From the NCBI GenBank assembly GCA_023262365.1, contig JALRBF010000011.1:1-18204 (forward strand): DNA of 18,204 bases, given 5' to 3'. Below, piece after piece: positions 2,340 to 18,204 of the stretch. The translations under genes were made by a program, and so were the position numbers. The number at the start of each line of letters is the position of its first letter. Within the stretch, counting starts at the first letter, position 1. The stretch is from Burkholderiaceae bacterium. GTDB taxonomy: Bacteria > Pseudomonadota > Gammaproteobacteria > Burkholderiales > Burkholderiaceae_C. Below the pieces are notes generated by a model. It saw nothing but the letters and a program-made list of their open reading frames with translations, did no database searches and was not told the DNA's origin.

Positions 2340-2357
2340 ACCGGTGCCGCGTGCAGG

Positions 2358-3170: not shown

Positions 3171-4588
3171 GTGGCGTTGGCGCGAAGCACCGCGCCAGGG
3201 TTAAGTAGATTGTGCGGGTCCAGCGCCTGCTTAATGGCGTGCATCATGCCCAAAGCGGTGCCGTCTTTGTATTGTTGCAAACTTGCTGCCTTTTGCCGCC
3301 CCACGCCGTGCTCGGCAGAAAACGAGCCCCCGTGCGCGGCCACCGCCTCGTACACCAAGGCGTTGATGGCGCCCTCGTGTGCGTGCAAAAACGCCGCGGC
3401 GTCGCCGCCCTCGGGCGCTTGCACGTTGTAGTGCAAATTGCCATCGCCCAGATGGCCAAAATTCACCAGCCTGGCTCCTGGCACGGCGCGCTGCAGTGCG
3501 GTGTCGGTGTGCTGCACAAAAGCCGCCAGCTGCGACACGGGCAGGGCAATGTCGTGCTTAATGTTTAGCCCCTCTTGGGCTTGCGCCAGCGGAATGCTCT
3601 CGCGCACGTGCCACATGGCTTGGGCTTGTTGCAGGTTTTGGGCAATCACCACGTCGCTGGCGTGCTCGGCCTCAAGGGCTTCTTGCAGCGTGTCCTCAAG
3701 GCCTTGACGCGCGCGCGCCTCGGCGTGTGCATCGCTTACCTCAAGCAGCACGGCGTAAGGGCCCTTGCCGTTAAACGGAATATGCAGCTGCGGCAGTTGC
3801 CGTGCCGTAAGGGCCAGCGCTTGTTGCCCCATCATCTCAAAGCCGGTGAGCGCGGCGTCCAAGCGCCGCTGGGCCATGCCCAGCAGCGCCACTGCCGCGG
3901 TCACGCTGGGCACCCGCGCCCACGCCGTCAGGCGTGCCGCTGGCATGGGGTACAGCTTAAGCGTGGCCGCGGTGATGATGCCCAGCGTGCCCTCGCTGCC
4001 CACCATCAGGTGGCGTAGGTCGTAGCCGGTGTTGTCTTTACGCAGCCCGGTTAGCCCATGCCATACCTGCCCCTGTGCCGTTACCACTTCCAGCCCTAGG
4101 CAAAGGTCGCGCGCGTTGCCAAAGCGCAGCACCTGGGTGCCCCCGGCGTTGGTGGCCAAGTTACCGCCAATGGTGCAGCTGCCCTCAGAGGCCAGGCTTA
4201 GCGGCAACAGCAAGTTGGCCTCGGCGGCCCAGCGCTGCGCTTGTTGCAGCACGCAACCGGCCTCCAGCGTCATGGTCAGGTTGGCCGCGTCCAGCGCGCG
4301 CAGGCGGTGCATGCGCGTGAGGCTGAGCACCACGGCCGTGCCACTGGTGTCGGGCGTGCTGGCCATGGCCAAGCCGGTGTTGCCCCCCTGGGGCACGATG
4401 GGCGTGCCGTGCGCGGCGCATTGGCGCACCACGGCGGCCACCTCTTGGGTGTGGCGTGGGCGCACCACGGCCAAGGCGCGCCCGGGTTGGCGGCCGCGCC
4501 AATCGCGCTCGTAGCTGGCGCAGTCGGCCCCGGTTAGCACATGCTCGGGGCCTACCGCCTCGCGCAGTGCGGCCAGCACATCAGCCAT
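3167..4588 (-). CDS. FAD-binding oxidase/dehydrogenase, GlcD/D-2-hydroxyacid dehydrogenase family
   Basis: This is a 473-residue flavoprotein of the vanillyl-alcohol-oxidase fold, likely oxidising a D-2-hydroxyacid such as D-lactate, glycolate or 2-hydroxyglutarate. The FAD-binding half shows [12 protein letters not shown] (residues 63-74), [19 protein letters not shown] (140-158) and [19 protein letters not shown] (194-212). The C-terminal half has the metal- and substrate-binding [12 protein letters not shown] (377-388), AEHGVGRQK (425-433) and [10 protein letters not shown] (456-465). I chose ATG 4588 because [19 protein letters not shown] is where family similarity starts; an in-frame ATG at 4606 would add six mostly basic residues. 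It overlaps the DUF2069 gene by 8 bases and thyA by 4. The exact substrate is not decidable here. Confidence 0.92.
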
Positions 4589-4973
4589 ACGCGGTCTCTT
4601 GCGCATCGCGCAGCCGCAGCCGCACGTGCGCCGCGCAAGCCACAAACAGCGCCACGCACAGCGCCACCTGCAGCCACGCCAGCAGCAGCCCCAGGCCGCT
4701 TTCGGTGGTGCCGCGAACCACCCCCTCTAAAAAGTACAACCACACCAACAGGCTGAGCCAGCGAAAGGTGTACATGCGCCGTTTAAGCAAGCCCGCCAGT
4801 GGTACACAAAGTGGCAGCACCTTAAGCGCCCACCATGAGCCCCCAGGACGCAGCGGCGCCAGCCACAGCTCCCACGCCAGACCCAGCGCGATCAACGCCA
4901 GCAACAGCGCCACGCTGGCGCGCTGGGTTTGCTGCACGTGGGGTGACATGGGGTTAGGGGGTGGCGCGTTCAT
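4581..4973 (-). CDS. DUF2069 family small membrane protein
   Basis: This is a 130-residue protein of unknown function with four hydrophobic segments. They lie near ASVALLLALIALGLAWELWL, WWALKVLPLCVPLAGLL, WLSLLVWLYFLEGVVRG and LLAWLQVALCVALFVACAAHV. The central pattern, LKVLPL..P..GLL.RR.YT.RW.S.L..LYF.EGVVR, is the DUF2069 signature as I recall it. ATG at 4973 is preferred over a TTG three codons upstream (4982) and an in-frame ATG at 4949. It lies 26 bases after the P450 stop and overlaps the FAD oxidase gene by 8 bases. The function is unknown and the neighbourhood does not settle it. Confidence 0.85.
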   Translation of the reverse strand: MNAPPPNPMSPHVQQTQRASVALLLALIALGLAWELWLAPLRPGGSWWALKVLPLCVPLAGLLKRRMYTFRWLSLLVWLYFLEGVVRGTTESGLGLLLAWLQVALCVALFVACAAHVRLRLRDAQETAYG

Positions 4974-4999
4974 GCGTGCCAATCATAAGGCCCACACGC

Positions 5000-6289
5000 T
5001 TAGCCCTGCGTGGTAAACGGTGCGTGCAAAAAGCCCCTAAACCGCGCCCGCTCGCCACGCGTGGGTGCAGCGCTTAGCGCGTAGCGCGGAAAGCGTCGTA
5101 AAAACATGGACAGCGCCACCATCCCCTCAAGCCGCGCCAGGCTGAGCCCGGCACACTGATGCGTGCCAAAACCAAACGCCAGGTGCCGGTTGGGTTGGCG
5201 CTGCAGGTCAAGGGTATGGGGCTGGGCAAATACCTCGGGGTCGCGGTTGGCCGCGCCAATGCACAAGGTAAGGCGCGCGCCTTCAGGCAGCGCGACGCCG
5301 CCCATTACGGTGCGCGTACGCGCGCGGCGGTTACCCAATTGGTTGGACGACTCAAAGCGCAAAAATTCATCAACTGCTGGCACCATCAACACTTCTTCTT
5401 CGGGGCTTTGTGCCGCGCAGGCCTGCAGCGACGCCAGCAGCCCCGCACGGGCTTGTGGCCATTCGCACAGCGCCACCAAGGCGTTGCCAATCAGGTTGGT
5501 GGTGGTCTCGTGTCCGGCGTTGAGCAAAAAAATACAGTTTTGCAGCAATTCGGTTTCGCTTAGCGCTTGGCCGTTGGCGTCGCCCGCAATCAAGCGCGTT
5601 AGTACATCGCGCTGCGGGTCCAGCGGATGCGCGCGCCGGTGCGCCACCAACCCGCGCAGGTACTGGGTAAAGTCGCGCACGCTGTCTTGTCCGCGCTGCA
5701 GTTGGGCGGCGCTGAGTGTGGGCTCCAGGGCGCCCAAAATCGCCAATGACCACTCGCGCAGCGGGCCGCGATCGGCGTGCGGCACGGCCAGCAAGTTGCC
5801 AATAATTTCCACTGGAATCGCCGAGGCAAAGTCGTCAATCAAGTCGCCGCCGCCGCGGGCTTGCAAGCGGTCAAGCAAATCGCTTACCAACTGGCGCAGC
5901 CCCGGTGCCAAGTCGGCAATCGCGCGGCGTGTGAGCGCGCCCATGATGATGCCGCGCACCCGGGTGTGCAGCGGCGGGTCGTTAAACACCAAGCTGGTGG
6001 TGTGGTGCTCGTACAGCGGCGTACCCTCGCCGTATTTGGGGGCAAATTCTTCGTGCTTGTCGGCGTAAAAGCTTTGGGCATCGCGGTACACCGCCACCAA
6101 GTCGGCGTGTCGTGTCAGAAAAAAACTGCCATCAGGCAACTGCGCCACCGGCCGCGTTTGACGCAGCGCGTCGTACACCGGGTAGGGGTTGGCCAAAAAG
6201 GCGGCATCCAGCGCCCGCAAGTCAAAGGTCTGCGCCATGGCCAAGGCCTGCGCGGGGGCCATGGGTGGCGTAATCACGGGCCCACCCAT
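5000..6289 (-). CDS. Cytochrome P450, bacterial soluble type
   Basis: This is a 429-residue heme monooxygenase without a membrane anchor, the usual size for bacterial class I P450s that need separate redox partners. It has the I-helix oxygen-activation motif LLNAGHETTTNL (residues 255-266), the K-helix ExxR (E308-R311 in DEFLRF) and the heme-ligand loop AFGFGTHQCAGLSLAR (371-386) with Cys379 as axial ligand. The C-terminal RFRGFLHAP strand also fits. No ferredoxin or reductase gene is adjacent. The ATG at 6289 shares one base with the stop of the upstream hydrolase (TGATG); an adjoining GTG at 6292 is an alternative. The long GC-rich extension further upstream has no P450 similarity. The substrate is unknown, and I cannot assign a CYP family by eye. 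Confidence 0.93.
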   Translation of the reverse strand: MGGPVITPPMAPAQALAMAQTFDLRALDAAFLANPYPVYDALRQTRPVAQLPDGSFFLTRHADLVAVYRDAQSFYADKHEEFAPKYGEGTPLYEHHTTSLVFNDPPLHTRVRGIIMGALTRRAIADLAPGLRQLVSDLLDRLQARGGGDLIDDFASAIPVEIIGNLLAVPHADRGPLREWSLAILGALEPTLSAAQLQRGQDSVRDFTQYLRGLVAHRRAHPLDPQRDVLTRLIAGDANGQALSETELLQNCIFLLNAGHETTTNLIGNALVALCEWPQARAGLLASLQACAAQSPEEEVLMVPAVDEFLRFESSNQLGNRRARTRTVMGGVALPEGARLTLCIGAANRDPEVFAQPHTLDLQRQPNRHLAFGFGTHQCAGLSLARLEGMVALSMFLRRFPRYALSAAPTRGERARFRGFLHAPFTTQG

Positions 6290-7098
6290 CACGCGCTCAG
6301 CAGCCACGGGTGCAGGGCCCGCAGCGTGGGCTCGGGGGCTTCGGTCATCAGCGCGTGGCCGGCCTCTACCAGCACCGTGTCGGCCTGGGGCAGGGCCGCC
6401 TGCAAGCTGGCGGCGGCTTTGGGGGGCGTCATTTGGTCGCGCTTGCCCAGCACCAAGCGCACCGGGCACTGCACCTTGGCTGCAGCGTCGGGCGCGCCTT
6501 GGTAGCTGTCGCAGGCCAAAAAGCCTTGGGCAAACACGTTGTGCTCGCGGTTGCTGGCTAGCACCCGCTTCATCAGCGCGTCCAGCGCGCCGTATGTCCA
6601 GGTGCCCGGGCCCAGCGCCGAGGGCGGCGGCGCTAAGGTGCTGTGGCTAAAAGTGTTAACCATGGCCATGGCACGCGGCGGGTCGTCTTGCGCGGCTTGC
6701 AGCAGGGCCGGTGCCACGCGCATGGGGTAAGCCGTGCCCACCAGCGCCAAGCGGCTGATGCACTGCGGCGCTTGCGCGGCCATCTCCAGGCCAATCAACG
6801 AGCCCATGCTGTGCCCGGCCACGGCGGCTTGGGTGACGCCAGCGGCTTGCAAGCACTGCAGCAAGGCCGCGGCGTAGGCCTCGATGCTGGCGCACGGCTG
6901 GCCCGTGCTGCGACCATGGCCGGGCAGGTCCACGGCCAGCACGTTGGCGCCATGGTGCGCCAGGTAACGGCTTTGCAAAATCCACACGCTGTGGTCGTTG
7001 AGCACGCCGTGAATCAGCAGCACGGTGGGCTGCCCGGCCACCCACGGCCGGCCACCCGTATAAGCGTAGGCTTGGCCCCAAGGGCATGCAATCTTCAT
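6289..7098 (-). CDS. Alpha/beta-fold hydrolase
   Basis: This 269-residue cytoplasmic protein is of the alpha/beta-hydrolase fold with a complete apparent catalytic triad. Ser97 lies in the nucleophile elbow GHSMGS (95-100), Asp221 in GKRDQMTPP and His248 in VEAGHALM. The oxyanion-hole segment is VLLIHGVLNDHSVW (26-39), and AVDLPGHGRS (55-64) is typical of the esterase/lipase and meta-cleavage hydrolase branches. It starts at ATG 7098 overlapping the metY stop (ATGA), and its stop touches the P450 start (TGATG), so all three genes are likely translated from one mRNA. The substrate is unknown. Neighbouring MetY chemistry (acyl-homoserine) could suggest an ester substrate, but that is speculation. 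Confidence 0.92.
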   Translation of the reverse strand: MKIACPWGQAYAYTGGRPWVAGQPTVLLIHGVLNDHSVWILQSRYLAHHGANVLAVDLPGHGRSTGQPCASIEAYAAALLQCLQAAGVTQAAVAGHSMGSLIGLEMAAQAPQCISRLALVGTAYPMRVAPALLQAAQDDPPRAMAMVNTFSHSTLAPPPSALGPGTWTYGALDALMKRVLASNREHNVFAQGFLACDSYQGAPDAAAKVQCPVRLVLGKRDQMTPPKAAASLQAALPQADTVLVEAGHALMTEAPEPTLRALHPWLLSA

Positions 7099-8399
7099 GC
7101 GTTACCCGCTTTCTCGGCTGCGCGCAGGGCACGCTTGAGGTCGTCAATTAAATCGTCGGCGTCTTCTAGCCCAATCGAGAGCCGAATGGTGCCCGCGCCA
7201 ATGCCAGCAGCAGCCAAGTCCGCGTCGCTCATTCGAAAATGCGTGGTGCTGGCCGGGTGAATCACTAGGCTGCGCGCGTCGCCCACGTTGGCCAAATGGC
7301 TAAACAACTGCAGCGCTTCAATAAAAGCCATGCCCTGTGCGCGGCTGCCGCGTAGGTCAAAGCTAAACACCGAACCCGCCCCGCGCGGCAGCAGGCGTTG
7401 AGCCAGGGCGTGGCTGGGGTGGCTGGGCAGCATGGGGTGGCCCACCCGTGCCACCATGGGGTGCGCGGCCAAAAATTCGACCACCCGCTCGGTGTTGCTC
7501 ATGTGCCTGGCCATGCGCAACGGCAGCGTCTCCAGCCCCTGTAGCACCAACCACGCCGAGTGCGGGCTGAGGCAGGCGCCAAAGTCGCGCAGGGCCTCGC
7601 GCCGCGCGCGCAGCAAAAACGCACCCACGGTGGCCTCTTCGGTAAACACCATGTGATGAAAGCCTTCGTAGGGTTCGCTCAGGGTAGGAAACTTGCCCGA
7701 CGTCTCCCAATCAAAGGCGCCGCTGTCCGAGACCACACCCGCGATGACCGTGCCGTGGCCGCTTAAGAATTTGGTGGCCGAGTGCATCACCAAATCGGCG
7801 CCGTGGCGCATGGGTTGCAGCAGCCACGGGGGGGTTAGCGTGGCGTCAACTAACAGCGGCAGCCCGTTGTCGTGCGCCAGCGCGCCAATGGTCTCCAAAT
7901 CCAGCACGTCGTTGCCGGGGTTGCCCACGGTCTCGCCAAACAGCAGCCGCGTGTTGGGCCGCAGCGCCGCGCGCCAGGCGTCGGGCTGGTTGGGGTCAAC
8001 AAAGGTGGTGTCAATGCCAAAGCGCGGTAGGGTGTAGTGCAGCAAGTTGTGCGAGCCGCCGTACAGCGCGCGACTGGCCACGATGTGGTCGCCCGCACCA
8101 AGCAGCGTGGTGATGCTGGCGTGCAGCGCGGCCTGCCCGCTGGCAAAGGCCAGCGCGCCGCAGGCGCCCTCAAGTGCGGCCACACGTTGCTCCAGCACGG
8201 CGTTGGTGGGGTTGCTGATACGGCTGTACACGTGCCCACCGCGCTCTTGGTTAAAAAGCGACGCGGCGTCGTCGGCGCTGCGAAAAACAAACGAGGTACT
8301 TAGGTGCAACGGCACCGCGCGCGCGCCGGTGGTGGGGTCGGGTTGTGCGCCGGCGTGCAGCGCCAGCGTGTCAAAGTTGGGGTTGGCTGCGCCAGCCAT
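7095..8399 (-). CDS. metY: O-acetylhomoserine sulfhydrylase / aminocarboxypropyltransferase (MetY type)
   Basis: This 434-residue PLP enzyme of the Cys/Met-metabolism family replaces the acyl group of an acylhomoserine with sulfide or methanethiol to make homocysteine or methionine. The N-terminus (NPNFDTLALHAGAQPDPTTGA, residues 6-26) is the MetY pattern. The PLP-binding region shows YSRISNPTNAVLE (58-70), FASGQAAL (85-92), LLVDATLTPPWL (182-193) and the Schiff-base Lys210 in HSATKFLSGHG. The length and the ETVGNPG segment (156-162) favour MetY over the shorter MetZ (O-succinylhomoserine), but the acyl substrate is not proven. An AGGAG ribosome-binding site precedes ATG 8399. It heads the long minus-strand run. 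No SAM riboswitch is visible in its 68-base leader region. Confidence 0.93.
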   Translation of the reverse strand: MAGAANPNFDTLALHAGAQPDPTTGARAVPLHLSTSFVFRSADDAASLFNQERGGHVYSRISNPTNAVLEQRVAALEGACGALAFASGQAALHASITTLLGAGDHIVASRALYGGSHNLLHYTLPRFGIDTTFVDPNQPDAWRAALRPNTRLLFGETVGNPGNDVLDLETIGALAHDNGLPLLVDATLTPPWLLQPMRHGADLVMHSATKFLSGHGTVIAGVVSDSGAFDWETSGKFPTLSEPYEGFHHMVFTEEATVGAFLLRARREALRDFGACLSPHSAWLVLQGLETLPLRMARHMSNTERVVEFLAAHPMVARVGHPMLPSHPSHALAQRLLPRGAGSVFSFDLRGSRAQGMAFIEALQLFSHLANVGDARSLVIHPASTTHFRMSDADLAAAGIGAGTIRLSIGLEDADDLIDDLKRALRAAEKAGNA

Positions 8400-8404
8400 G
8401 GCTT

Positions 8405-8409
8405 CTCCT
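8405..8409 (-). promoter_or_regulatory. Ribosome-binding site of metY
   Basis: AGGAG on the minus strand, five bases before ATG 8399. It is the only strong Shine-Dalgarno match in the first gene of the minus-strand run and supports the chosen start. Confidence 0.75.
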
Positions 8410-8452
8410 AGTCAAAGTCCGGTATATTCATCGTAACCGCAGCCAAGCGGCC

Positions 8453-8461
8453 AAGAGGAGG
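8453..8461 (+). promoter_or_regulatory. Ribosome-binding site of the CBS-domain gene
   Basis: AAGAGGAGG, six bases before ATG 8468. It fixes this start over the longer open frame that runs back into metY. Confidence 0.8.
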
Positions 8462-8467
8462 CAAACC

Positions 8468-8929
8468 ATGAAAGTCAGTGACATTTTGCGCGTCAAGGGC
8501 AACACGCTGTACACCGTGCGTCCAGACCAATCGCTTACCGAGGCCGTTGAGCTCATGGCCAGCCACGACATCGGCTCGTTGGTGGTCATGTCCCACGGCG
8601 TGCTCGAGGGCATGCTTACCTTTCGTGAAGTGATTAACCACTTGCACCAGCACGGCGCGGCCTTGGGCAACAGCACGGTGCGCGCGGCCATGGACGACGC
8701 CCCGCTTACTTGTACCCAGGCCACCGAACTCGACGAAGTGCGGCGCATGATGCTCGAGCGCCACGCGCGCTACATGCCGGTGATGGACCAAGCCATGTTG
8801 ATGGGGGTGATCAGCTTTTACGACGTGGCCAAAGCCGTGGTGGACAGCCAAAACTTTGAAAACCGCATGCTCAAGGCCTACATACGCGACTGGCCTGGCG
8901 AGGACGACCCCGCCCAAACCAAGGGCTAG
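8468..8929 (+). CDS. Stand-alone paired CBS-domain protein
   Basis: This 153-residue soluble protein consists essentially of two CBS motifs (a Bateman module). CBS1 covers about residues 1-65 (MKVSDILRVKG, then TVRPDQSLTEAVELMASHDIGSLVV and GVLEGMLTFREVI). CBS2 covers about 72-136 (VRAAMDDAPLTCTQATELDEVRRMMLERHARYMPVMD, then LMGVISFYDVAKAV). Such modules bind adenosine-containing ligands (AMP, ATP, SAM) and act as sensors, but no effector domain is attached here. The start follows a strong ribosome-binding site. It is transcribed divergently from metY, and its stop TAG shares the palindrome CTAG with the convergent hemH stop. The ligand and partner are unknown. Confidence 0.9.
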   Translation: MKVSDILRVKGNTLYTVRPDQSLTEAVELMASHDIGSLVVMSHGVLEGMLTFREVINHLHQHGAALGNSTVRAAMDDAPLTCTQATELDEVRRMMLERHARYMPVMDQAMLMGVISFYDVAKAVVDSQNFENRMLKAYIRDWPGEDDPAQTKG

Positions 8930-10014
8930 TTGTTCGCGCCCATGGCCAGGGCCGCCTCGCGTTGCGCGGCGCGGGCCTCGGGGCTGGTGTCGTCGTGGTC
9001 AGGGGCCGGCCAACCCTGCATGTGCTGCGTGGCCACGGCGGCCAGCGCGTCAAGCCACGCCGGGGCATCGTTAAGTGCCTCAATGTACGCAAAGTCGGTG
9101 CCCCCGGCTTCACGAAACGCCGCCTGCACCTCCATGGCAATTTCCTCCAGCGTCTCTAGGCAGTCGCTGGTAAAGCCCGGGCAAAAAACCTCCGCGCTGG
9201 TTCGCCCCTCTTGCGCCATGCGCACCAGAGTGGGCTCGGTGTAGGGCTCCAACCACTTGGCCTTGCCAAAGCGAGATTGAAACGTGACCGTGTAATCGGC
9301 CCGCGCCAACCCCAGGCGCTCGGCCAGCAGCCGCGCTGTTTTGTGGCACTGGCAGTGGTAGGGGTCGCCCTGCTCCAGGGTGCGTGCGGGCACGCCGTGA
9401 AAGCTCATGATTAAGTGCGCCTTGCGCCCGTGCGCGGCCCAATGGGTCTGCACCCGCTGCGCCAGCGCGTCAATGTAGGCCGGGTGGTCGTGGTAGGCGT
9501 TAACAAACCGCAGCTCGGGCACCCAGCGCGCCCGGGCGGCCCACTGGTACACGGCATCGGCCACGCTGGCGCTGGTGGTGCCGCTGTACTGGGGGTAGGC
9601 CGGCAGCACCAGCACACGGGTTACGCCCTCGGCCCGCAGCGCCTCAAGCTGCGAGGCCACCGACGGGTTGCCGTAGCGCATGGCCGCGCGCACCTGCACG
9701 TGCGGGCCCAGCCGCTGGGCCAGCCCTTGGGCTTGGCGCAGCGTCCAGCGCAGCAGCGGCGAGCCCTCGGGCGTCCAAATGCTGGCGTACTTGGCTGCCG
9801 AGCGTTTGGGCCGCACGCGCAAAATAATGCCGTGCAAAATCGGCCACCACAGCAGCCGCGGAATCTCCACCACCCGCTGATCGCTCAAAAATTCGGCCAG
9901 GTATCGCCGCAGTGCCGGCGCCGTGGGCGCATCGGGCGTGCCCAGGTTGCACAGCAGCACGGCCGTGCGCGGCACGCTACCGTGGCGGTACGGGGGTTCG
10001 GTTTCAAAACGCAT
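8926..10014 (-). CDS. hemH: Ferrochelatase (protoheme ferro-lyase)
   Basis: HemH inserts ferrous iron into protoporphyrin IX, the last step of protoheme synthesis. The protein has 362 residues. Motifs are TAVLLCNLGTPDAPT (residues 17-31), RVVEIPRLLWWPIL (47-60), YASIWTPEGSPL (76-87), VLPAYPQYSGTTSASV (136-151), the catalytic His206 in MSFHGVPAR (203-211), YHCQCHKTARLLAERL (219-234), TFQSRFGKAKWLEP (244-257) and FCPGFTSDCLETLEEI (277-292) with conserved Glu287. I chose ATG 10014 because RFETEPPYRHG is where family similarity begins; an in-frame frame extends to ATGs at 10038, 10113 and 10131, but with no family similarity there. The ribosome-binding site is weak. It converges on the CBS gene with a shared CTAG and diverges from proX. 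Confidence 0.95.
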   Translation of the reverse strand: MRFETEPPYRHGSVPRTAVLLCNLGTPDAPTAPALRRYLAEFLSDQRVVEIPRLLWWPILHGIILRVRPKRSAAKYASIWTPEGSPLLRWTLRQAQGLAQRLGPHVQVRAAMRYGNPSVASQLEALRAEGVTRVLVLPAYPQYSGTTSASVADAVYQWAARARWVPELRFVNAYHDHPAYIDALAQRVQTHWAAHGRKAHLIMSFHGVPARTLEQGDPYHCQCHKTARLLAERLGLARADYTVTFQSRFGKAKWLEPYTEPTLVRMAQEGRTSAEVFCPGFTSDCLETLEEIAMEVQAAFREAGGTDFAYIEALNDAPAWLDALAAVATQHMQGWPAPDHDDTSPEARAAQREAALAMGANN

Positions 10015-10108
10015 GGCGTATTTTGGCCCACTCCGCACCCCCATGCGGCCAGGGGGGATGTCGTCGGTCGCGAACCTGTTACCGCGCCGTTTTGGTGGAG
10101 TCAGCTGG

Positions 10109-10137
10109 TTCATATATGCACAAAAATGCATAAACAA
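10109..10137 (-). promoter_or_regulatory. Possible hemH promoter
   Basis: On the minus strand, TTGTTT (10137-10132) and TATGAA (10114-10109) are separated by 17 bases, a fair sigma-70 layout with 3 of 6 and 4 of 6 consensus matches. It would give a leader of roughly 90 bases before ATG 10014. The dyad TATGCA-N6-TGCATA lies in the spacer. Confidence 0.35.
10115..10132. repeat. Perfect inverted repeat TATGCA-N6-TGCATA, candidate operator
   Basis: A 6-base perfect dyad (10115-10120 and 10127-10132) around CAAAAA. It is AT-rich in an otherwise GC-rich window and is placed between the divergent hemH and proX genes, as expected of a dimeric repressor site. The cognate regulator is unknown. Confidence 0.5.
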
Positions 10138-10158
10138 TAGTTTACTTAGACGATAGGG

Positions 10159-10164
10159 TATATT
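10159..10164 (+). promoter_or_regulatory. Possible -10 box of the proXWV operon
   Basis: TATATT lies 35 bases before ATG 10199 in an AT-rich stretch. The hexamers 15-18 bases upstream (10135-10143) match the -35 consensus poorly, so it may need an activator, or the true promoter may differ. Confidence 0.35.
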
Positions 10165-10165
10165 A

Positions 10166-10185
10166 GGGGTTGTTTTATCAACCCC
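10166..10185. repeat. Perfect inverted repeat GGGGTTG-N6-CAACCCC directly before the proX ribosome-binding site
   Basis: Arms 10166-10172 and 10179-10185 with loop TTTTAT. If transcription starts at about 10171 it can only act as a DNA operator over the start site. If transcription starts further upstream it would form a 7-bp RNA hairpin abutting the Shine-Dalgarno sequence. Confidence 0.6.
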
Positions 10186-10192
10186 AAGGAGG
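10186..10192 (+). promoter_or_regulatory. Strong ribosome-binding site of proX
   Basis: AAGGAGG, six bases before ATG 10199. It is the best Shine-Dalgarno match in the window, consistent with high expression of a binding protein. Confidence 0.85.
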
Positions 10193-10198
10193 CGTCAT

Positions 10199-11197
10199 AT
10201 GACCCGAAAATCCCTAGGACTTTTTGCCGCGGCAGCGCTGGCTGCCGCCCTCTCCACCTCCGCTGCGGCGGCGTGTGGCCGTGTTACGGTTGCCAACATG
10301 AACTGGCAGTCGGCTGAAGTTTTGGCCGCCGTGGACAAAATGATTCTTGAAGAAGGCTACGGTTGCAAAGTGGAGATCGTCCCTGGCGACACAATGCCCA
10401 CGCTGACCTCCATGATGGAGAAGGGCGAGCCCGACGTGGCGCCTGAGGCGTGGATCAACTCGGTGCGCGAGCCGCTGGACGCGGCGGTAAAAGAGGGACG
10501 TTTGCACTATGCGGCCAAGTCGCTGCCTGACGGCGGCGTTGAAGGCTGGTGGATTCCCAAGTACGTGGCAGATGCCAACCCTGGCATCAAGACCATTGAC
10601 GACGCGCTCAAGCGCCCCGATTTGTTCCCTGCGGCCGAGGCCAAGGGCAAGGGCGGCGTACACAACTGCCCGTCCGGCTGGAACTGCCAGCTCAGCACGG
10701 CCAACGCTTTTAAGGCTTGGGGTGCCGAGGGCAAGGGCTTCGTGCTGATTGATACCGGCTCGGCCGCTGGCCTGGATGGCTCGATTGCCAAGGCTTTTGA
10801 GCGCAAGCAAGGCTGGCTGGGCTACTACTGGGCCCCAACCTCTATCTTGGGCAAGTACGAAATGGTCAAGCTCAACGCTGGCGTGCCGCACAACAAGGCC
10901 AACTGGAATTCGTGTAACTCCAAGGCCGACTGTGCGAACCCCAAGAAAAACGATTGGGCTGTAGCAGAGGTTTACACCGTTGTAACCGACCGCTTCAAGA
11001 AAGCTGGCGGGGACGCGTACAACTACCTCGCCACACGCGGTTGGGACAACCAGACCGTTGGTCAGCTAATGGCTTGGATGACCGATAATCAAGCCACCGG
11101 GGAAGATGGCGCAGTCCACTTCTTGAAGACCTATCCGCAGGTGTGGCAAAAGTGGGTGAGCCCTGCCGCTGCCAAGAAAATCAAGGCTGCTCTTTAA
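10199..11197 (+). CDS. proX: Glycine betaine/proline-type ABC transporter substrate-binding protein (OpuAC/ProX family)
   Basis: This is the periplasmic receptor of an osmoprotectant importer, 332 residues. It has a signal peptide: basic TRK, hydrophobic LGLFAAAALAAAL, and probable cleavage near TSAAAA before Cys26. The residue at -3 is Ala, so this is not a good lipobox. The OpuAC fold shows in VTVANMNWQSAEVLAAV (29-45), DVAPEAWINSVREPL (79-93) and CPSGWNCQLSTANAF (157-171), the last matching the E. coli ProX disulfide loop CNPGWGC. Trp85, Trp161 and Trp211 align with its betaine-binding aromatic box. Six cysteines fall in three close pairs (26/56, 157/163, 239/245). It is first in the operon, followed by hairpins that probably make it more abundant than ProW and ProV. 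Betaine, choline or another quaternary amine is possible. Confidence 0.9.
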   Translation: MTRKSLGLFAAAALAAALSTSAAAACGRVTVANMNWQSAEVLAAVDKMILEEGYGCKVEIVPGDTMPTLTSMMEKGEPDVAPEAWINSVREPLDAAVKEGRLHYAAKSLPDGGVEGWWIPKYVADANPGIKTIDDALKRPDLFPAAEAKGKGGVHNCPSGWNCQLSTANAFKAWGAEGKGFVLIDTGSAAGLDGSIAKAFERKQGWLGYYWAPTSILGKYEMVKLNAGVPHNKANWNSCNSKADCANPKKNDWAVAEVYTVVTDRFKKAGGDAYNYLATRGWDNQTVGQLMAWMTDNQATGEDGAVHFLKTYPQVWQKWVSPAAAKKIKAAL

Positions 11198-11206
11198 TTG
11201 CCTTAC

Positions 11207-11228
11207 GACCCCCGCTGAGGCGGGGGTC
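11207..11228 (+). terminator. GC-rich hairpin after proX (upstream of the tandem pair)
   Basis: A perfect 9-bp stem, GACCCCCGC/GCGGGGGTC, with a TGAG loop, 10 bases past the proX stop. No T-run follows, so it more likely protects the proX mRNA 3' end or pauses polymerase than terminates transcription by itself. Confidence 0.7.
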
Positions 11229-11229
11229 T

Positions 11230-11265
11230 AACGCCTGCGTCGGTCGACGCGGGCGTTTTGTTTTT
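11230..11265 (+). terminator. Intrinsic terminator/attenuator between proX and proW
   Basis: The 12-bp stem AACGCCTGCGTC/GACGCGGGCGTT (11230-11241, 11246-11257) contains one G-U pair and a GGTC loop, and is followed by TTGTTTTT. This is a standard Rho-independent terminator, yet it lies inside the operon, with the proW ribosome-binding site AGGAG (11266-11270) starting on the next base. Partial readthrough would give excess binding protein over permease. Confidence 0.85.
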
Positions 11266-11279
11266 AGGAGTACAGGTCA

Positions 11280-12167
11280 ATGGACTGGCTAGAAGAATTT
11301 CCAGCGCTATCACGAGGTGCCCTCCGGGAGATCAAGAAGGGCATCGACTTGGGGTTTCGCCAATTCACGCGGGAGTACGGTGAGTTCTGGGAAAACCTCT
11401 TTATGCCCCTGCGCGACTTTTTGCTTTGGTCAGAGTCGTTATTGACGGAGTCCCCTTGGCTCATTATTTTGGCGGGACTGGCCGCTCTGGCTTGGATGGC
11501 GAGCAGGAACTGGAAAATCGTCCTTGGCTCTGTGCTCACGATGGTTGTGATCGGAATTTTCGGGATGTGGGAAGACACCATGAAGACGGTATCGATGGTG
11601 TTTGTCTCCACCCTGGTGTCGTTGGCGCTTGGGCTACCGATCGGTGTGCTCATGAGTCGCTACGATCCTTTGCAGCGTGTGGTATCCCCTGTGCTGGACG
11701 TGATGCAAACCATGCCCAGCTTTGTGTACTTGATTCCGGTGGTGATGCTGTTGGGTATTGGGAAGGTGCCAGGCTTAATTGCAGTGGTGATTTTTTCTAT
11801 CCCCCCGGTGATTCGCTTCACCAACCTGGGTATACGCCTGGTGCCGGCAGACATGCTAGAGGCCGCCGATGCCTTTGGCACCTCGTACTGGCAAAAGCTC
11901 TTTAAGGTACAGTTTCCGCTGTCGCTGCCCACCATCATGGGGGGCATCAACCAAACCATCATGCTGGCGTTGTCCATGGTGGTGATTGCCTCCATGATTG
12001 GCGTGCAAGGCCTGGGCCAGCCGGTGCTCAAGGCCATCTCCAACCAGTACTTCACCTTGGGCATGTTCAACGGCTTGGCCATTGTGGGCATTGCCATCAT
12101 CTTTGACCGCATTTCGCAGGCCTACGGCAAGCGGCTGCAACGGCACCTGGAGGTGGTTCATGGCTGA
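11280..12167 (+). CDS. proW: Glycine betaine/proline-type ABC transporter permease
   Basis: This is the inner-membrane permease of the importer, 295 residues. An N-terminal amphipathic stretch of about 58 residues precedes the first helix (WLIILAGLAALAWMA, 60-74). The permease core runs from about 105 to 280, with VSTLVSLALGLPIGVLMSRY (109-128), PVLDVMQTMPSFVYLIPVVMLLGIG (137-161) and the EAA coupling loop EAADAFGTSYWQKLFKVQFPLSLPTIMGGIN (194-224) that contacts ProV. The start is ATG 11280, nine bases after AGGAG. The last 8 bases overlap proV, so the two are translationally coupled. The first half is noticeably less GC-rich than flanking genes: 96 of 180 bases are G or C at 11401-11580. Confidence 0.93.
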   Translation: MDWLEEFPALSRGALREIKKGIDLGFRQFTREYGEFWENLFMPLRDFLLWSESLLTESPWLIILAGLAALAWMASRNWKIVLGSVLTMVVIGIFGMWEDTMKTVSMVFVSTLVSLALGLPIGVLMSRYDPLQRVVSPVLDVMQTMPSFVYLIPVVMLLGIGKVPGLIAVVIFSIPPVIRFTNLGIRLVPADMLEAADAFGTSYWQKLFKVQFPLSLPTIMGGINQTIMLALSMVVIASMIGVQGLGQPVLKAISNQYFTLGMFNGLAIVGIAIIFDRISQAYGKRLQRHLEVVHG

Positions 12168-13245
12168 TTCAACCGCCTCTTTACCCGCCGCCGAGACCGA
12201 CGTGGTGGCCAGCTCGGTCGGCGTGAGCATCAAAAACCTGTACAAAGTGTTTGGCCCCAACCCCGCGGCGGTGATGCCGCTGGTGCACCAGGGCTTGTCC
12301 AAAGACGAGTTGCGCGACAACCACGGCCACGTGCTGGGCTTGCGCAACATCAACCTTGACATGAAGCCCGGGGCGATTCAGGTGGTCATGGGCTTATCGG
12401 GTTCGGGCAAAAGCACGCTCATTAGGCACATTAATCGCCTGATCGACCCCACCGAAGGCGAGGTGTGGGTAGGAGACGAGAACATCATGGCGTTGGGGGC
12501 CAAGGCGTTGCGCGAGTTTCGCCGCCGCTCCACGGCCATGGTGTTTCAGCGCTTTGCGCTGTTTCCGCATTACACCGTGATGGAGAACGTGCAGTTTGGC
12601 CTAGAAGTCAAAGGCGTGGGGCGCAAAGCACGGCGCGAAGAGGCCGCGCGCTGGATTGACCGGGTGGGCCTAGCGGGCTACGAGGACAACTACCCCAACC
12701 AGCTCTCAGGCGGCATGCAGCAGCGCGTGGGCTTGGCCCGGGCGCTGACCAACGACGCGCCGGTGTTGCTGATGGACGAGGCGTTTTCGGCGTTGGACCC
12801 GCTGATACGCAGCGACATGCAGTCGGTGCTGATGGACTTGCAAGGCGAAATTGGCAAGACCATTGTGTTTATTACCCACGACTTGGACGAGGCGCTGCGC
12901 TTGGGCGACAACATTGCCATTTTGCGTGACGGCGAAATGGTGCAGCAGGGCACGGGCCAAAGCATTGTGCTGCGCCCGGCGGACGATTACATCGCGTCGT
13001 TTGTGCGTGACGTCAACCGTGGCCGCGTGATTCGTTGCCGCACGCTGATGCAGCCCGGCGCACCGGTTGAGGGCCCGCAGGTGGAGCAGAGTTTGGTGAT
13101 TGAAGAGGCCGCGCGCTTGCTCAGCGCCGAGGGCCTGGAGACGGCCAACGTGGTGGACGGCAAAGGGCGGCATCGCGGCCTCATCACACAGTCCGACATC
13201 ATTGCCGCCATCGTGCCGCCAGCGGCCGAGACCGAGGCCGCTTAA
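12160..13245 (+). CDS. proV: Glycine betaine/proline-type ABC transporter ATP-binding protein
   Basis: This 361-residue cytoplasmic ATPase powers the importer. Walker A is GLSGSGKST (78-86), the Q-loop VFQRFALFPH (128-137), the signature LSGGMQQR (182-189), Walker B LLMDEAFSALD (203-213) and the switch His240 in FITHDLDEAL. The stretch LVHQGLSKDELRDNHGHVLGLRNINLDMKPG (41-71) is characteristic of the ProV/OpuAA branch. About 85 residues follow the ATPase core and contain one recognisable CBS-like unit (SLVIEEAARLLSAEGLETANVVD, then HRGLITQSDII), the osmosensory regulatory region in family members; a full tandem pair is not obvious. The stop TAA overlaps the convergent hpnE stop in a TTAA palindrome, leaving no room for a terminator. 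Confidence 0.94.
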   Translation: MADSTASLPAAETDVVASSVGVSIKNLYKVFGPNPAAVMPLVHQGLSKDELRDNHGHVLGLRNINLDMKPGAIQVVMGLSGSGKSTLIRHINRLIDPTEGEVWVGDENIMALGAKALREFRRRSTAMVFQRFALFPHYTVMENVQFGLEVKGVGRKARREEAARWIDRVGLAGYEDNYPNQLSGGMQQRVGLARALTNDAPVLLMDEAFSALDPLIRSDMQSVLMDLQGEIGKTIVFITHDLDEALRLGDNIAILRDGEMVQQGTGQSIVLRPADDYIASFVRDVNRGRVIRCRTLMQPGAPVEGPQVEQSLVIEEAARLLSAEGLETANVVDGKGRHRGLITQSDIIAAIVPPAAETEAA

Positions 13246-14510
13246 AACGGCAGCACGTGGGCGCTGCGTACCGCACCCTCTAGGGTGGCGGGGTAGGGGC
13301 CGGCCACGTAGTCGCCGGCCGCCCATAGCGTGTGCCAAACCACGCTGGGCGGGCGCACGGCCTGCGGGGTGCAGGCAAAGGTGGCGCGTTTTTCTTGCAC
13401 CGTTTGCTCGTGCCGCAGCCCAGGCATGGCCAGCTGCTCGCGCAGCTGTTGCGTCACGCGGTGCCCCAGCTCGTCGTTGGGCAGCGTGCTGTGGCTTACC
13501 ACGGCGGCCAGCTCGCCGGTGTGCCCGCGCAGGGCCGCGGCGTCAAACACAAATTGCGCCGGCTGCTCGGGGTTGCTGGGCAGGTGCTGCATGGGCCGTG
13601 CCAGCGCGCGCGCGCCGCTTACCCACACCGTGGCAATGGCCGTGTGCTGCAGCGCGCGCGCTGCCGCCGCCCAGTGCTGGGCGGCGGGGGCGGCACACGT
13701 GGCCGCCAGCGCGGCCGCCTGCGGCGCGCCGCAGGCCAGCACCACCGCGTCATGCGTGGTGCCGTCGCTTAGCTGCCATTGCGCGTGCTGGTGGTGCAGG
13801 CTTTGCACGCGTTGGCCCAGCTTAACCTGATGGCCGCGCTGCAGCAGCCAGTGCCGCGCGGGCTCGGGGTAGCACTGGCTTAGGTGCAGCCGGGGCAAAT
13901 ACACCAAGGCGTCGGCGCAGCGCCCGCCCAGTGCATCGCCCAGCACCCGCACCCATAGGTCGGCGCTGGCTTGGTGCGGTGGTAGGTTCAGCGCGCTTAG
14001 GCACAGCGGCTCCAGCCATTGCCGCCACACCACCTCGGGTAAGCCATGCGCCAGTTGCGCCACGTTTTGTCCGGGGTAGGGCGCAAAGCCTGGGTGCGTC
14101 CAGCGCCGCAGCGCCCGCGCCAGTGCCAAGCGCGCGGTCCAGGGCCAGCCCCGCGCGCGCAGCAGCGCCCACGCACCGGCCAGCGGCGCAGGCACGGCGC
14201 CCGGCCAGTTGGGCAAACACAAGCCTTGTCCGTTGGGTAGGCGCAAATCCAGTGGCAAGCACGCAAACGCTTGCGCCGGCTTAACCCCCACGGTGCGCAT
14301 GGCTTGCAAGGTGTGGGCGTAGGCCCCCAGCATGATGTGTTGGCCGTTGTCGCGGCTGCGCGGGTTAACCGCCTGTTGGGCACGGGCGCGGCCGCCCACC
14401 TGTCCGGCCAAGTCGTACAGCGTAACCTGCCAGCCACGCTGCGCGGCGCGCACCGCAGCGGCGCAACCCGCCCAGCCGGCCCCCACCACGGCCACCCGGC
14501 GCTTGGTCAC
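13242..14510 (-). CDS. hpnE: Hydroxysqualene dehydroxylase (FAD-dependent amine oxidase family)
   Basis: HpnE reduces hydroxysqualene to squalene, the last of the three Hpn steps. The 422-residue flavoprotein begins with a Rossmann motif, RVAVVGAGWAGCAAAVRAAQRG (residues 5-26), followed by the phytoene-desaturase-like DLAGQVGGRAR (33-43) and RDNGQHIMLGAY. It ends with the FAD-binding LWAAGDYVAGPYPATLEGAVRSA. The start is GTG 14510, which shares its G with the hpnD stop (TAGTG) and gives the usual short lead to the Rossmann fold. The frame is open further back, but only as Gly/Ala-rich sequence within hpnD. It is last of the hpnC-D-E unit and overlaps proV tail to tail by 4 bases. Confidence 0.93.
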   Translation of the reverse strand: MTKRRVAVVGAGWAGCAAAVRAAQRGWQVTLYDLAGQVGGRARAQQAVNPRSRDNGQHIMLGAYAHTLQAMRTVGVKPAQAFACLPLDLRLPNGQGLCLPNWPGAVPAPLAGAWALLRARGWPWTARLALARALRRWTHPGFAPYPGQNVAQLAHGLPEVVWRQWLEPLCLSALNLPPHQASADLWVRVLGDALGGRCADALVYLPRLHLSQCYPEPARHWLLQRGHQVKLGQRVQSLHHQHAQWQLSDGTTHDAVVLACGAPQAAALAATCAAPAAQHWAAAARALQHTAIATVWVSGARALARPMQHLPSNPEQPAQFVFDAAALRGHTGELAAVVSHSTLPNDELGHRVTQQLREQLAMPGLRHEQTVQEKRATFACTPQAVRPPSVVWHTLWAAGDYVAGPYPATLEGAVRSAHVLPF

Positions 14511-15364
14511 TACCAGACCAGCCCCAGCGCCTGCACCCGCCACGCCAGCCACATTTTGCGCAGTGGCGTAATGGCCGCCCGCCGCTGCAGCACATCAAAG
14601 CCTCGGGCCTGCATGGTCAGCAGCAAATGGCGGTAAATGCTGGCCATCATCAGCCCGGGTTTTTGGGCGCGGCGGTCTGCAAGGGGCAGCGCGGCCAGCG
14701 CCTGGTCGTAAAGCGCCAACGCCCGCTGCGCCTCAAACGCCAACAGCCCGGCCAAGGCTGGGCTGGTGCGGGGCTGCAGCAAGTCGGCCTCGCTCACGCC
14801 GTGGGTGCGCATGTCGTCTTGCGGTAAGTACACCCGCCCACGCCGGGCGTCCTCGCCCACGTCGCGAATGATGTTGGTTAACTGTAGCGCCTGCCCCAGC
14901 GTGTGGGCGTAGGTGGTGGTGGCCGCCTCGGTTTGGCCAAAAATACGCGCCGCGGCCTCGCCCACCAGCCCGGCCACCAAGTGGGCGTAGCTTTGCAATT
15001 CGTCAAAGCTGCTGTAGCGGGTTTGCCGCAGGTCTTGCTGGCAGCCGTCGATCACGCCCCACAGCGCGTGCAGTGGAATGGCCAGCGCCGCCATGTGCGG
15101 CTGCAGCGCCAGCGTGACCGGATGGGTGGGATGCCCATCGGCCAGGCGCTGCACCTCGGTGCGCCACCACGCCAGCTTGGTTTGCGCCACGCTGGGGTCG
15201 TGCACCTCGTCCACGATGTCGTCAACCTCGCGGCAAAACGCATAAAACGCCGTAATCGCCGCACGCCGGGGCGGGGGCAAAAACATAAATGCGTAGTAAA
15301 AACTGCTGCCCGAGCCTGCGGCCTTGGCCTGAACATACTGTTGGGGCGTGGTCGTGGCGCTCAT
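14510..15364 (-). CDS. hpnD: Presqualene diphosphate synthase
   Basis: HpnD condenses two farnesyl diphosphates into presqualene diphosphate. The 284-residue protein has the squalene/phytoene synthase fold. It begins with SSFYYAFMFLPPPRRAAITAFYAFCREVDDIVDE (20-53), which holds the first Asp-rich motif (Asp48, Asp49, Asp52). The second Asp-rich motif is NIIRDVGEDARRGRVYLP (164-181), preceded by DGCQQDL (106-112). These residues bind the Mg-diphosphate groups. ATG 15364 overlaps the hpnC stop as ATGA; the open frame continues upstream without family similarity. Lack of a membrane helix and the order hpnC-hpnD-hpnE match known squalene operons. Confidence 0.94.
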   Translation of the reverse strand: MSATTTPQQYVQAKAAGSGSSFYYAFMFLPPPRRAAITAFYAFCREVDDIVDEVHDPSVAQTKLAWWRTEVQRLADGHPTHPVTLALQPHMAALAIPLHALWGVIDGCQQDLRQTRYSSFDELQSYAHLVAGLVGEAAARIFGQTEAATTTYAHTLGQALQLTNIIRDVGEDARRGRVYLPQDDMRTHGVSEADLLQPRTSPALAGLLAFEAQRALALYDQALAALPLADRRAQKPGLMMASIYRHLLLTMQARGFDVLQRRAAITPLRKMWLAWRVQALGLVW

Positions 15365-16224
15365 GTCGCGCCAGTGTACCCACGCCACACCAACTTGCCC
15401 ATGCCCAGCGCCAGCGCCGGGGCATCGCGCCAGCCCAGCACCACGCGCTGCTGCCACGGCGCGGGCGACATGCGCTGCACCCGGTCACACACGCGCAAGC
15501 CGCCTGCGACCACGGCGTGCAGCTCCAGCCCCAGCCGGCCCGGTACGCGCCGCGCCAAGGGCGCGCCGCGCAGCAGGTGGCCGCGTGCCTCGGCCACCAG
15601 CGCCGTAATCACGGCCCGGGCCTGCGCCGGCGGCGCCTGTGCCGGGTCGGTGTCGCCCGGCAGACCCACCTGCAGCCAGCGTGACTGCGGCACATAAAAC
15701 CGCCCGCGCGGCCCATCCACCGACAAATCCTGCCAAAAGTTAATCAACTGCAGCCCGGTGCAAATGGCGTCGCTTTGCGCCAGCGCCGGCGGCTCGTGCA
15801 CCCCGGCCAGGTGCAGCACCAGCCGCCCCACCGGGTTGGCCGAACGCGCGCAATAGGCCAGTAGCGCCGCATCGTCGGCGTAGCGCAGCCCGTGCGCGGT
15901 ATGGCGCACGTCTTGGGCAAACGCATCAAGCAAATCGCGCAGCGGCTGCAGTGGCAGGCGCCACGCTTGCCAGTGCTGGGCCAGCCCAGCCAGCGGTGGC
16001 GCCAGCCCCCTCGTGTGTGGCTGCTGCGCCAGCGCCACCAGCCCGGCATCAAGCGCCTGCAACGTCGCCAGCCGCTGCGCCGCCGGGGCGTCACCCTCAT
16101 CGGCCACATCGTCAGCGTAACGTGCAAAGTGGTACAGCGCCTGCAGCACGGGGCGCATGGCCGGCGGGCACAGCCAACTGGCTACCGGAAAGTTTTCGTA
16201 GTGCCCCACCGCGCGGTTCTGCAT
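15361..16224 (-). CDS. hpnC: Squalene synthase-like hydroxysqualene synthase
   Basis: HpnC converts presqualene diphosphate to hydroxysqualene. The 287-residue protein begins with the hallmark HYENFPVASWLCPPAMRP (residues 8-25). It has Asp-rich motif 1, FARYADDVADEGD (33-45), and motif 2, LQLINFWQDLSVDGPRGRFYVP (158-179). It is the first gene of the minus-strand hpnCDE unit, 49 bases from the divergent tRNA-Leu. No clear ribosome-binding site precedes ATG 16224. The product squalene normally feeds squalene-hopene cyclase, whose gene is not seen in this window. Confidence 0.93.
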   Translation of the reverse strand: MQNRAVGHYENFPVASWLCPPAMRPVLQALYHFARYADDVADEGDAPAAQRLATLQALDAGLVALAQQPHTRGLAPPLAGLAQHWQAWRLPLQPLRDLLDAFAQDVRHTAHGLRYADDAALLAYCARSANPVGRLVLHLAGVHEPPALAQSDAICTGLQLINFWQDLSVDGPRGRFYVPQSRWLQVGLPGDTDPAQAPPAQARAVITALVAEARGHLLRGAPLARRVPGRLGLELHAVVAGGLRVCDRVQRMSPAPWQQRVVLGWRDAPALALGMGKLVWRGYTGAT

Positions 16225-16273
16225 GGCCCATATTGTCGCCTGCTTACACCCTTACAATGGCGGGTTTCCCGAT
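16225..16273. promoter_or_regulatory. Divergent promoter region of tRNA-Leu/tig and hpnC
   Basis: A TACAAT -10 box (16253-16258) lies 15 bases before the tRNA and is followed by a GC-rich discriminator typical of stable-RNA promoters. The nearest -35-like TTGTCG (16233-16238) is only 14 bases away, so the -35 element is uncertain. Read the other way, GACAAT (16237-16232) could be a -10 box for hpnC, which would give an almost leaderless hpnC message. Confidence 0.45.
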
Positions 16274-16361
16274 GCGCGGGTGGCGAAATTGGTAGACGCA
16301 CCAGGTTTAGGTCCTGACGCCCGTTAAGGGTGTGGGGGTTCGAGTCCCCCCCCGCGCACCA
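16274..16361 (+). tRNA. tRNA-Leu, anticodon UAG, with encoded CCA
   Basis: The 88-base type II tRNA folds cleanly. The acceptor stem is GCGCGGG/CCCGCGC (16274-16280 with 16351-16357), followed by discriminator A and CCA (16358-16361). The D arm is GCG-AAATTGGTAGA-CGC. The anticodon loop TTTAGGT (16306-16312) places TAG at 16308-16310, reading leucine CUA and, by wobble, other CUN codons. The 16-base variable arm (16318-16333) contains a CCC/GGG stem. The T arm is GGGGG-TTCGAGT-CCCCC (16334-16350). The outermost anticodon-stem pair is C16301/A16317, a mismatch. It lies 38 bases ahead of tig and is probably co-transcribed with it. Confidence 0.97.
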
Positions 16362-16399
16362 CCAACATGCAAACACATGCAAGCAATAGGAGCGAACCC

Positions 16400-17707
16400 A
16401 TGGCGGTAACCGTTGAAACGCTGGAAAAACTTGAGCGAAAAATCACGCTCACCGTGCCAGCGCAAGCCCTTACCCAAGAGGTTGAAAATCGGCTCAAGCG
16501 GCTCGCCCGGCAAGTCAAAATGGACGGCTTTCGCCCCGGCAAGGTGCCGCTGGGCGTAGTAGCCAAAATGTACGGTGCCTCGGTGCAAATGGAGGTGGTA
16601 AACGAAAAAGTTGGCCAAGCCTTTGGCGAGGCCGCCACCGAAGCCCAACTGCGTGTGGCGGGCACCCCCAGCATCACCGAAAAAGAAGGCGCCCCCGTGG
16701 GCGAACTGCACTTTGACGCGGTGTTTGAGGTCTTTCCCGAAGTTAAACTGGGCGACCTGAGCCAAGTTGAAGTCAAGCGCGCCACCAGCGAGGTGCCCGC
16801 CGAGGCCGTGGACAAAACCATTGATTTGTTGCGCAAACAGCGCCGCTCGTTTGCCGAGCGTGCCCAAGGCAGCGCCGCGGCCGCCAGCGACCAGCTGACC
16901 GTGGACTTTGCCGGCAGCATCGACGGCGTGGCCTTTGAAGGGGGGCAAGCCAGCGACTTTCGCTTTGTGTTGGGCGAAGGCCAAATGCTTCCGGCCTTTG
17001 AAGAAGCCGCCACCGGCATGAAAGTGGGCGAGAGCAAAACCTTTCCGTTGGCCTTTCCTGAAGACTACCAAGGCAAAGAAGTTGCCGGCAAAACCGCCGA
17101 CTTTGTGATTACCCTCAAGCGACTCGAAGCCGCCCACCTGCCCGAAGTGGACGAAGCCTTTATCAAGTCGTTGGGCGTGGAATCGGGCCAAGCCGACGAC
17201 TTGCGCGCAGACATACAAAAAAACCTTAGTCGCGAACTCGACACCCGACTTGAGGCCCGCAACAAAGGCGCGGCCATGCAAGCCCTGGCCGACAACGCCG
17301 AGCTCGACCTGCCGCAAGCCAGCATCAAAGACGAGATTCAGCGGCTGATGGAAAACGCCCGCGCCGAGCTCAAACAACGCGGCCTCAAAGACGCCGACAA
17401 AGCCCCGCTGCCCGAAGACATGTTTCGCGAGCAGGCCCAGCGCCGGGTGCGCCTGGGCCTTATCGTGGCCGAGTTGGTACAAAAACACGACCTTGCGGCC
17501 AAGCCCGAGCAAGTGCAAGCCCACATCGAGCAAATGGCCTCGGCCTACGAGCGTCCGGCCGACGTGATTCGCTGGTACGGCAGCGACCGCAACCGCATGG
17601 CCGAAGTTGAAGCCCTGGTGGTCGAGCGCAACGTCACGCAGCATGTCCTGTCGCAAGCCAAGGTCGTTGACGAGGTGGTACCCTTTGACGACGTGATGGG
17701 GCAATAG
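16400..17707 (+). CDS. tig: Trigger factor (ribosome-associated chaperone and peptidyl-prolyl isomerase)
   Basis: Trigger factor binds at the ribosome exit tunnel and shields nascent chains. The 435-residue length is normal. The N-terminal ribosome-binding domain (about 1-145) carries the L23-docking loop GFRPGKVP (43-50). The FKBP-like isomerase domain (about 150-250) includes DQLTVDFAGSIDGVAFEGG, FVLGEGQMLPAFEEAATGMKVGE and FPEDYQGKEVAGKTADFVITLKRL. The helical C-terminal chaperone arms follow, rich in Lys, Glu and Gln. ATG 16400 follows AGGAG (16388-16392); the frame extends 11 codons upstream towards the tRNA 3' end, without family similarity. clpP starts 24 bases after the stop, the standard order in proteobacteria. 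Confidence 0.97.
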   Translation: MAVTVETLEKLERKITLTVPAQALTQEVENRLKRLARQVKMDGFRPGKVPLGVVAKMYGASVQMEVVNEKVGQAFGEAATEAQLRVAGTPSITEKEGAPVGELHFDAVFEVFPEVKLGDLSQVEVKRATSEVPAEAVDKTIDLLRKQRRSFAERAQGSAAAASDQLTVDFAGSIDGVAFEGGQASDFRFVLGEGQMLPAFEEAATGMKVGESKTFPLAFPEDYQGKEVAGKTADFVITLKRLEAAHLPEVDEAFIKSLGVESGQADDLRADIQKNLSRELDTRLEARNKGAAMQALADNAELDLPQASIKDEIQRLMENARAELKQRGLKDADKAPLPEDMFREQAQRRVRLGLIVAELVQKHDLAAKPEQVQAHIEQMASAYERPADVIRWYGSDRNRMAEVEALVVERNVTQHVLSQAKVVDEVVPFDDVMGQ

Positions 17708-17731
17708 CCGCACAACCTTCGGAGCCAAAAC

Positions 17732-18204
17732 ATGAGTGCCATCGACACACAAGGCCTGGGCATGGTGCCCATGGTGATCGAACAATCGGGGCGCGGCGAA
17801 CGCGCCTACGACATTTACTCCCGCTTGCTCAAAGAGCGCGTGGTATTCATGGTGGGCGGCGTCAACGACCAAACCGCCAACTTGGTGGTGGCCCAGCTGC
17901 TGTTTTTGGAAAGTGAAAACCCCGACAAAGACATCCACCTCTACATCAACTCACCCGGTGGGTCGGTGAGCGCGGGCATGGCCATTTTTGACACCATGAA
18001 CTTCATCAAGCCCGACGTCTCGACCCTGTGCATTGGCATGGCCGCGAGCATGGGGGCGTTTTTGCTGGCCGCCGGCCAGCTAAGGGCTGCGCCGGTAGAA
18101 CTGCGGAGTGACGCCAGCGGGCAATCGCTGAACGGGCAGATCGAGCTGCTGGAGGATGTCGGCGGCACGCTGAGCATCGCCGACATGGCCGACCCGGCCA
18201 TCCA
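17732..18204 (+). CDS. clpP: ClpP protease subunit, N-terminal 115 residues genuine, then non-ClpP sequence; incomplete at the window edge
   Basis: The frame starts at ATG 17732 after GGAG (17721-17724). Residues 1-115 match ClpP closely: [23 protein letters not shown] (11-33), [13 protein letters not shown] (35-47), [18 protein letters not shown] (68-85) and the catalytic Ser106 in [14 protein letters not shown] (102-115). ClpP should continue with a lysine-rich turn, then the MIHQP catalytic-His strand and later the catalytic Asp. Instead the open frame reads [15 protein letters not shown] and onward to the window end. So only one of three catalytic residues is encoded, although the intact family length would still have about 85 residues to go. 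As written the product could not be an active peptidase. I infer an assembly junction near 18065-18080 more than a natural fusion. Confidence 0.85.
18077..18204 (+). other. Sequence foreign to clpP, resembling the start of a 7TMR-DISM sensor protein (extracellular domain 2)
   Basis: In frame after the ClpP LLAAG, this encodes about 42 residues to the window edge. The pattern G.SL...[15 protein letters not shown] resembles the opening of the 7TMR-DISMED2 extracellular domain of membrane histidine kinases and diguanylate cyclases, as I recall that family. Read with the preceding [14 protein letters not shown], it looks like a signal-peptide end plus mature start. The identity rests on a short stretch and is tentative; that it is not ClpP is clear. 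Confidence 0.6.

Follow-up and report, generated by a model that had tools for sequence, protein, structure and literature searches.

A clpP gene passing into Pseudomonas alcaligenes-like sensor DNA at a contig end: almost certainly an artefact

The clpP reading frame at the end of contig C199 switches in mid-gene to a sensor-like sequence, and on the comparisons presented here this switch is almost certainly an ordinary artefact and not biology. The tip of the contig can be called chimeric with great confidence, consisting of a Burkholderiales host sequence and a Pseudomonas alcaligenes-like tail, which were most likely brought together by a chimeric molecule or read or by a wrong extension of the assembly graph. 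Two sources of DNA are present and meet at a short word close to the end of the contig. The switch from one organism to the other is abrupt and lies at position 18077, 128 bases short of the end of C199. An artefact had been preferred to a natural fusion in the earlier note on this DNA, and the preference is strengthened by a Pseudomonas donor carrying the exact word at the join, by the intact clpP-clpX pair of genome G003, and by the contig-end position.

The window and its genome

The window, meaning the whole stretch of 18,204 nucleotides that was analyzed, is contig C199 of genome G000 in full (1-18204). The source genome comprises 1.90 Mb in 376 contigs, with a completeness of 90.67% and a contamination of 2.84%; because the assembly is fragmented, it is probably a metagenome bin. 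The opposite end of the window is unsuspicious: the truncated ABC-transporter protein found there aligns with G001 over residues 5-313 of 313, at 72%.

The gene tig (trigger factor), the usual upstream neighbour of clpP, is located at 16367-17707 (+), as shown by trigger factor homologues and by the same gene order in G003. Among the 120 matches listed of 7999, the nearest named relatives of this trigger factor belong to Hydrogenophaga, Ramlibacter, and other Comamonadaceae/Burkholderiaceae, at about 66-67%, and still closer relatives appear at 99%, 91%, and 69%. Because of these relatives the host is taken to be a member of the Burkholderiales.

Other genes of the window were also recorded. 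A tRNA-Leu gene (16274-16361, +) lies directly upstream of tig. Three adjoining genes at 13242-16224 (-) encode, according to Pfam, two members of the squalene/phytoene synthase family and one protein of the amine-oxidase type, a trio which we take to resemble the HpnC/HpnD/HpnE squalene route. A glycine-betaine-type ABC transporter occupies 10199-13245 (+), with an OpuAC binding protein (Pfam) followed by permease-like and ATPase-like frames from the open reading frame list.

The host part of clpP

The open reading frame at 17732-18202 (+) encodes 157 amino acids and is still open at the end of the window. Its host part, residues 1-111, is located at 17732-18064 (+) and is identified by Pfam family PF00574, by DNA identity to G003, and by the order tig-clpP-clpX in that genome. 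As the earlier note described, the frame is that of ClpP through Ser106, which is present in the motif ASMGA, and through GAFLLAAG (residues 108-115), so that Gly115, with its codon at 18074-18076, is the last ClpP residue. The Ser of ASMGA is the catalytic Ser of ClpP. Over residues 1-115 the frame is identical at 113 positions to P0193, a full ClpP of 212 aa.

The Pfam domain CLP_protease (PF00574) covers only residues 21-116 of the frame, corresponding to positions 2-97 of a profile of 182; the ClpP of G003 spans profile positions 2-181. DNA identity between the window and clpP of G003, a genome of the same genus, amounts to 318/345 at 17732-18076 and falls to 37/128 at 18077-18204. Both results agree with the reading that clpP turns into something other than ClpP at about 18077 while the frame stays open. 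His131 and the DTDRD motif of the G003 ClpP are both located after residue 116, where the window sequence is foreign. The MIHQP His and the DTDRD Asp are catalytic sites of ClpP, and the fused frame lacks both, just as had been predicted.

A complete clpP followed by clpX, reading on past the switch, is seen in G003, the closest relative, whose order tig-clpP-clpX was read from translations and, for clpP and tig, also from homology searches. A clpP search of 20 genomes, including that of the window, gave matches in 19 and none in G017, which is 68% complete. In all 18 relatives that were translated (L007-L024), among them 9 of 9 from the same genus, the main clpP remains ClpP beyond the switch point; this count leaves out L025, a second, weak clpP copy in G018. 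In G006 the contig also ends within clpP (L015, G006:C336, 1501-1904), 18-19 codons beyond the same point, as normal ClpP. When the tail was searched together with a few ClpP residues ahead of it, 399 genomes of the order gave a single match, in the genome of the window itself. A trait of the genus or of the order is ruled out by the 18 intact relatives together with the lack of the tail in the 398 other order genomes.

The foreign tail and its donor

The tail at 18077-18204 (+) had been described as a signal-peptide end with the start of a 7TMR-DISMED2 domain, and this description fits what was found, although the signal-peptide label was given by eye. The segment appears to be the beginning of a Pseudomonas 7TM-DISM/GGDEF protein that is cut by the contig end. 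At the DNA level, 18065-18204 is identical at 140 of 140 bases to a GGDEF sensor gene of Pseudomonas alcaligenes NBRC 14159 (L030), which includes all 128 bases of the tail. Two more loci titled P. alcaligenes match 18077-18204 at 117/128 (L031) and 102/128 (L032). Upstream of the shared word, agreement with the donor is only 8/44 bases (20/56 over 18021-18076 when the 12 bases of the word are counted in).

The product of the donor gene L030 has 638 amino acids with 7TMR-DISMED2, 7TMR-DISM_7TM, and GGDEF domains; the 7TM and GGDEF domains are absent from the window frame, which the contig end cuts off. By itself the 43-residue tail has no Pfam match. Residues 112-157, however, are identical at 44 of 46 positions to the protein P0001, over LAAG(E/Q)LRAAPVEL and onward, and P0001 carries 7TMR-DISMED2 (PF07696) at residues 41-173. 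A search with residues 114-157 alone returned seven proteins with E values up to 10, P0001 being the best at 95% identity, and six of the seven carry 7TMR-DISMED2. A genome scan with P0001 gave 45 loci, 43 titled Pseudomonas and two titled Gammaproteobacteria MAGs, with P. alcaligenes NBRC 14159 the best.

With the full donor protein as the query, distant relatives appear in 31 of 40 genomes of the order, most of the listed matches lying at about 420-640, in the GGDEF part; near full-length relatives at 32-33% identity are found in G410 and G024, and the genome of the window itself has three weaker matches (best E 1.4e-21). The kind of protein as such is thus not foreign, but the identical DNA is.

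The join

The two parts meet at the word CTGGCCGCCGGC (18065-18076, +), which encodes LAAG and suits clpP as well as the signal peptide of the Pseudomonas gene. It had been suggested that such a word could occur in both parents, and this holds: the word opens the donor match, is identical in L030 and L031, and is shared over at least 10 bases with G003, which carries TTGGCCGCCGGT at the site and so has TGGCCGCCGG in common. At 18064 the window has a host-like G and the donor L030 a C; after 18076 agreement is with the donor only. At this site 17 relatives were read (18 were scanned, L015 being missed by the pattern), and none of them has the exact 12-mer CTGGCCGCCGGC. The parental overlap is therefore put at a range of 10 to 12 bases. 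Both genes happen to read LAAG in one and the same frame, which keeps the frame open across the join; this openness is best regarded as a coincidence.

Origin of the chimeric contig end

The following course of events would account for these data. The bases from 1 to about 18064-18076 derive from a Burkholderiales bacterium, and those from 18065-18077 to 18204 from an organism like Pseudomonas alcaligenes that shared the sample or library. Joining took place at the word of 10-12 bases common to both genes, most likely by a template switch at short homology that produced a chimeric read or library molecule, at a contig end that was presumably thinly covered, or else by a wrong graph extension. 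The real clpP of the host would then presumably be intact.

Usual assembler k-mers measure 20 bases or more. A word of 10-12 bases is shorter than this, so that chimerism already present in the library molecule or read is at least as likely as a collapse of the graph. Of the earlier proposal, an assembly-graph chimera at a shared word, the join at the word stands, and the mechanism alone is qualified. A pure graph collapse on the shared word, in which no chimeric molecule or read took part, is a narrower form of the artefact and seems rather unlikely, at perhaps one chance to several against. The join lies exactly at a word common to both genes, and the formation of chimeric contigs through shared k-mers is a well-known fault (PMC7299287). 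Against this, besides the shortness of the word, no exact overlap as long as the donor match of 140 bases recurs at the other ends tested: at 98 ends of 49 unmasked contigs, a search for a fixed overlap of k size gave four matches, of 85, 65, 38, and 35 bases, all of them far from 140. A second test of contig ends, covering the 79 unmasked of 124 contigs, returned 17 cross-match rows and no k-like signature.

Some contig ends of the bin do overlap imperfectly, over 146 bases at 98.6% (L077/L092), 127 at 98.4% (L167/L173), and 217 at 83.9% (L075/L076), and in a further case over 385 bases at 72%. These imperfect overlaps of contig tips may be unresolved strain variants. One contig end, L183_R, resembles flanking sequence of numerous Pseudomonas loci, mostly at about 77-83% and in one row of 42 bases at 95%; it has the look of a conserved gene.

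Counting against the artefact reading are that no intact host clpP 3' part or clpX was seen, that the k-sized overlap signature is missing, and that the order does hold distant full-length relatives of the donor protein. A PF00574 search of the bin for the clpP 3' part, in which short contigs are masked, gave only the window's own copy. With the ClpX of G003 as the query, which had no positive control, the bin gave two weak matches, the best with E 5.7e-6 at 37%; PF07724 detected a 792-residue Clp-ATPase-like frame and three weaker matches. These searches are partly blind, for among 123 other contigs of the bin that were read, 45 consist entirely of N, each of at most 2,971 bases, and the 78 others measure at least 3,032 bases and hold no N. 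Because 45 of 123 contigs are masked, the absence of the clpP 3' part and of clpX is weak evidence.

Biological alternatives

The same absence, as far as the bin could be searched, would suit a real event, namely a very recent insertion or short-homology recombination of Pseudomonas sensor DNA in this strain or population, which broke clpP. The open frame also agrees with it, as does the 100% identity of the tail to a Pseudomonas gene, which is to be expected of a fresh transfer. If true as biology, the window would record a recent break of clpP by foreign DNA. Such an event is nevertheless considered very improbable. The switch falls just before the contig end, the 9 same-genus relatives read all have normal ClpP, and in the searchable bin the donor gene is represented as DNA by these 140 bases only, the rest not being found among the 40 of 77 candidates scored.

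Nor does the join recur. Residues 90-157 were searched against 5.8 billion proteins, and among the 120 matches listed of 6437, which include P0001 and ordinary ClpPs, there was no protein spanning the junction. P0155 and P0171, for which 84% coverage was reported, align only as far as residue 115, and a second independent case of the join is thereby dismissed among the matches listed. The window's own frame is likewise unlisted, so this absence is not strong and serves as supporting evidence only.

A natural divergent C-terminal half of ClpP, or a functional ClpP-sensor fusion, has next to no probability: a single open frame speaks for it, but the tail corresponds to the N-terminal end of 7TM-DISM proteins from Pseudomonas (P0001, 44/46 residues) and is identical at 140/140 bases to Pseudomonas sensor DNA, by which the divergent half is ruled out, the His and Asp sites lie past the switch, and no spanning homologue was listed.

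A chimeric contig end remains the preferred reading, and the last 128-140 bases of the contig should not be trusted. Caution is needed because a join of this kind, being in frame, could make a gene caller report a false ClpP-sensor fusion.

Comparison with known systems

Among known systems, the window most resembles the chimeric contigs of metagenomes and mixed samples, which likewise have two sources, a short shared word, and a short foreign tail at a contig end; nothing notable differs, and here the open frame mimics a fusion gene. With ClpP (PF00574) the frame shares residues 1-115, Ser106, and the upstream tig, but foreign sequence stands in for its second half, to which the His and Asp sites belong, and the contig ends before the gene does. 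With the 7TMR-DISMED2/7TMR-DISM_7TM/GGDEF protein of P. alcaligenes it shares the last 140 bases, identical to the NBRC 14159 gene, but of that sensor it keeps only the presumed signal-peptide end and the opening stretch of domain one.
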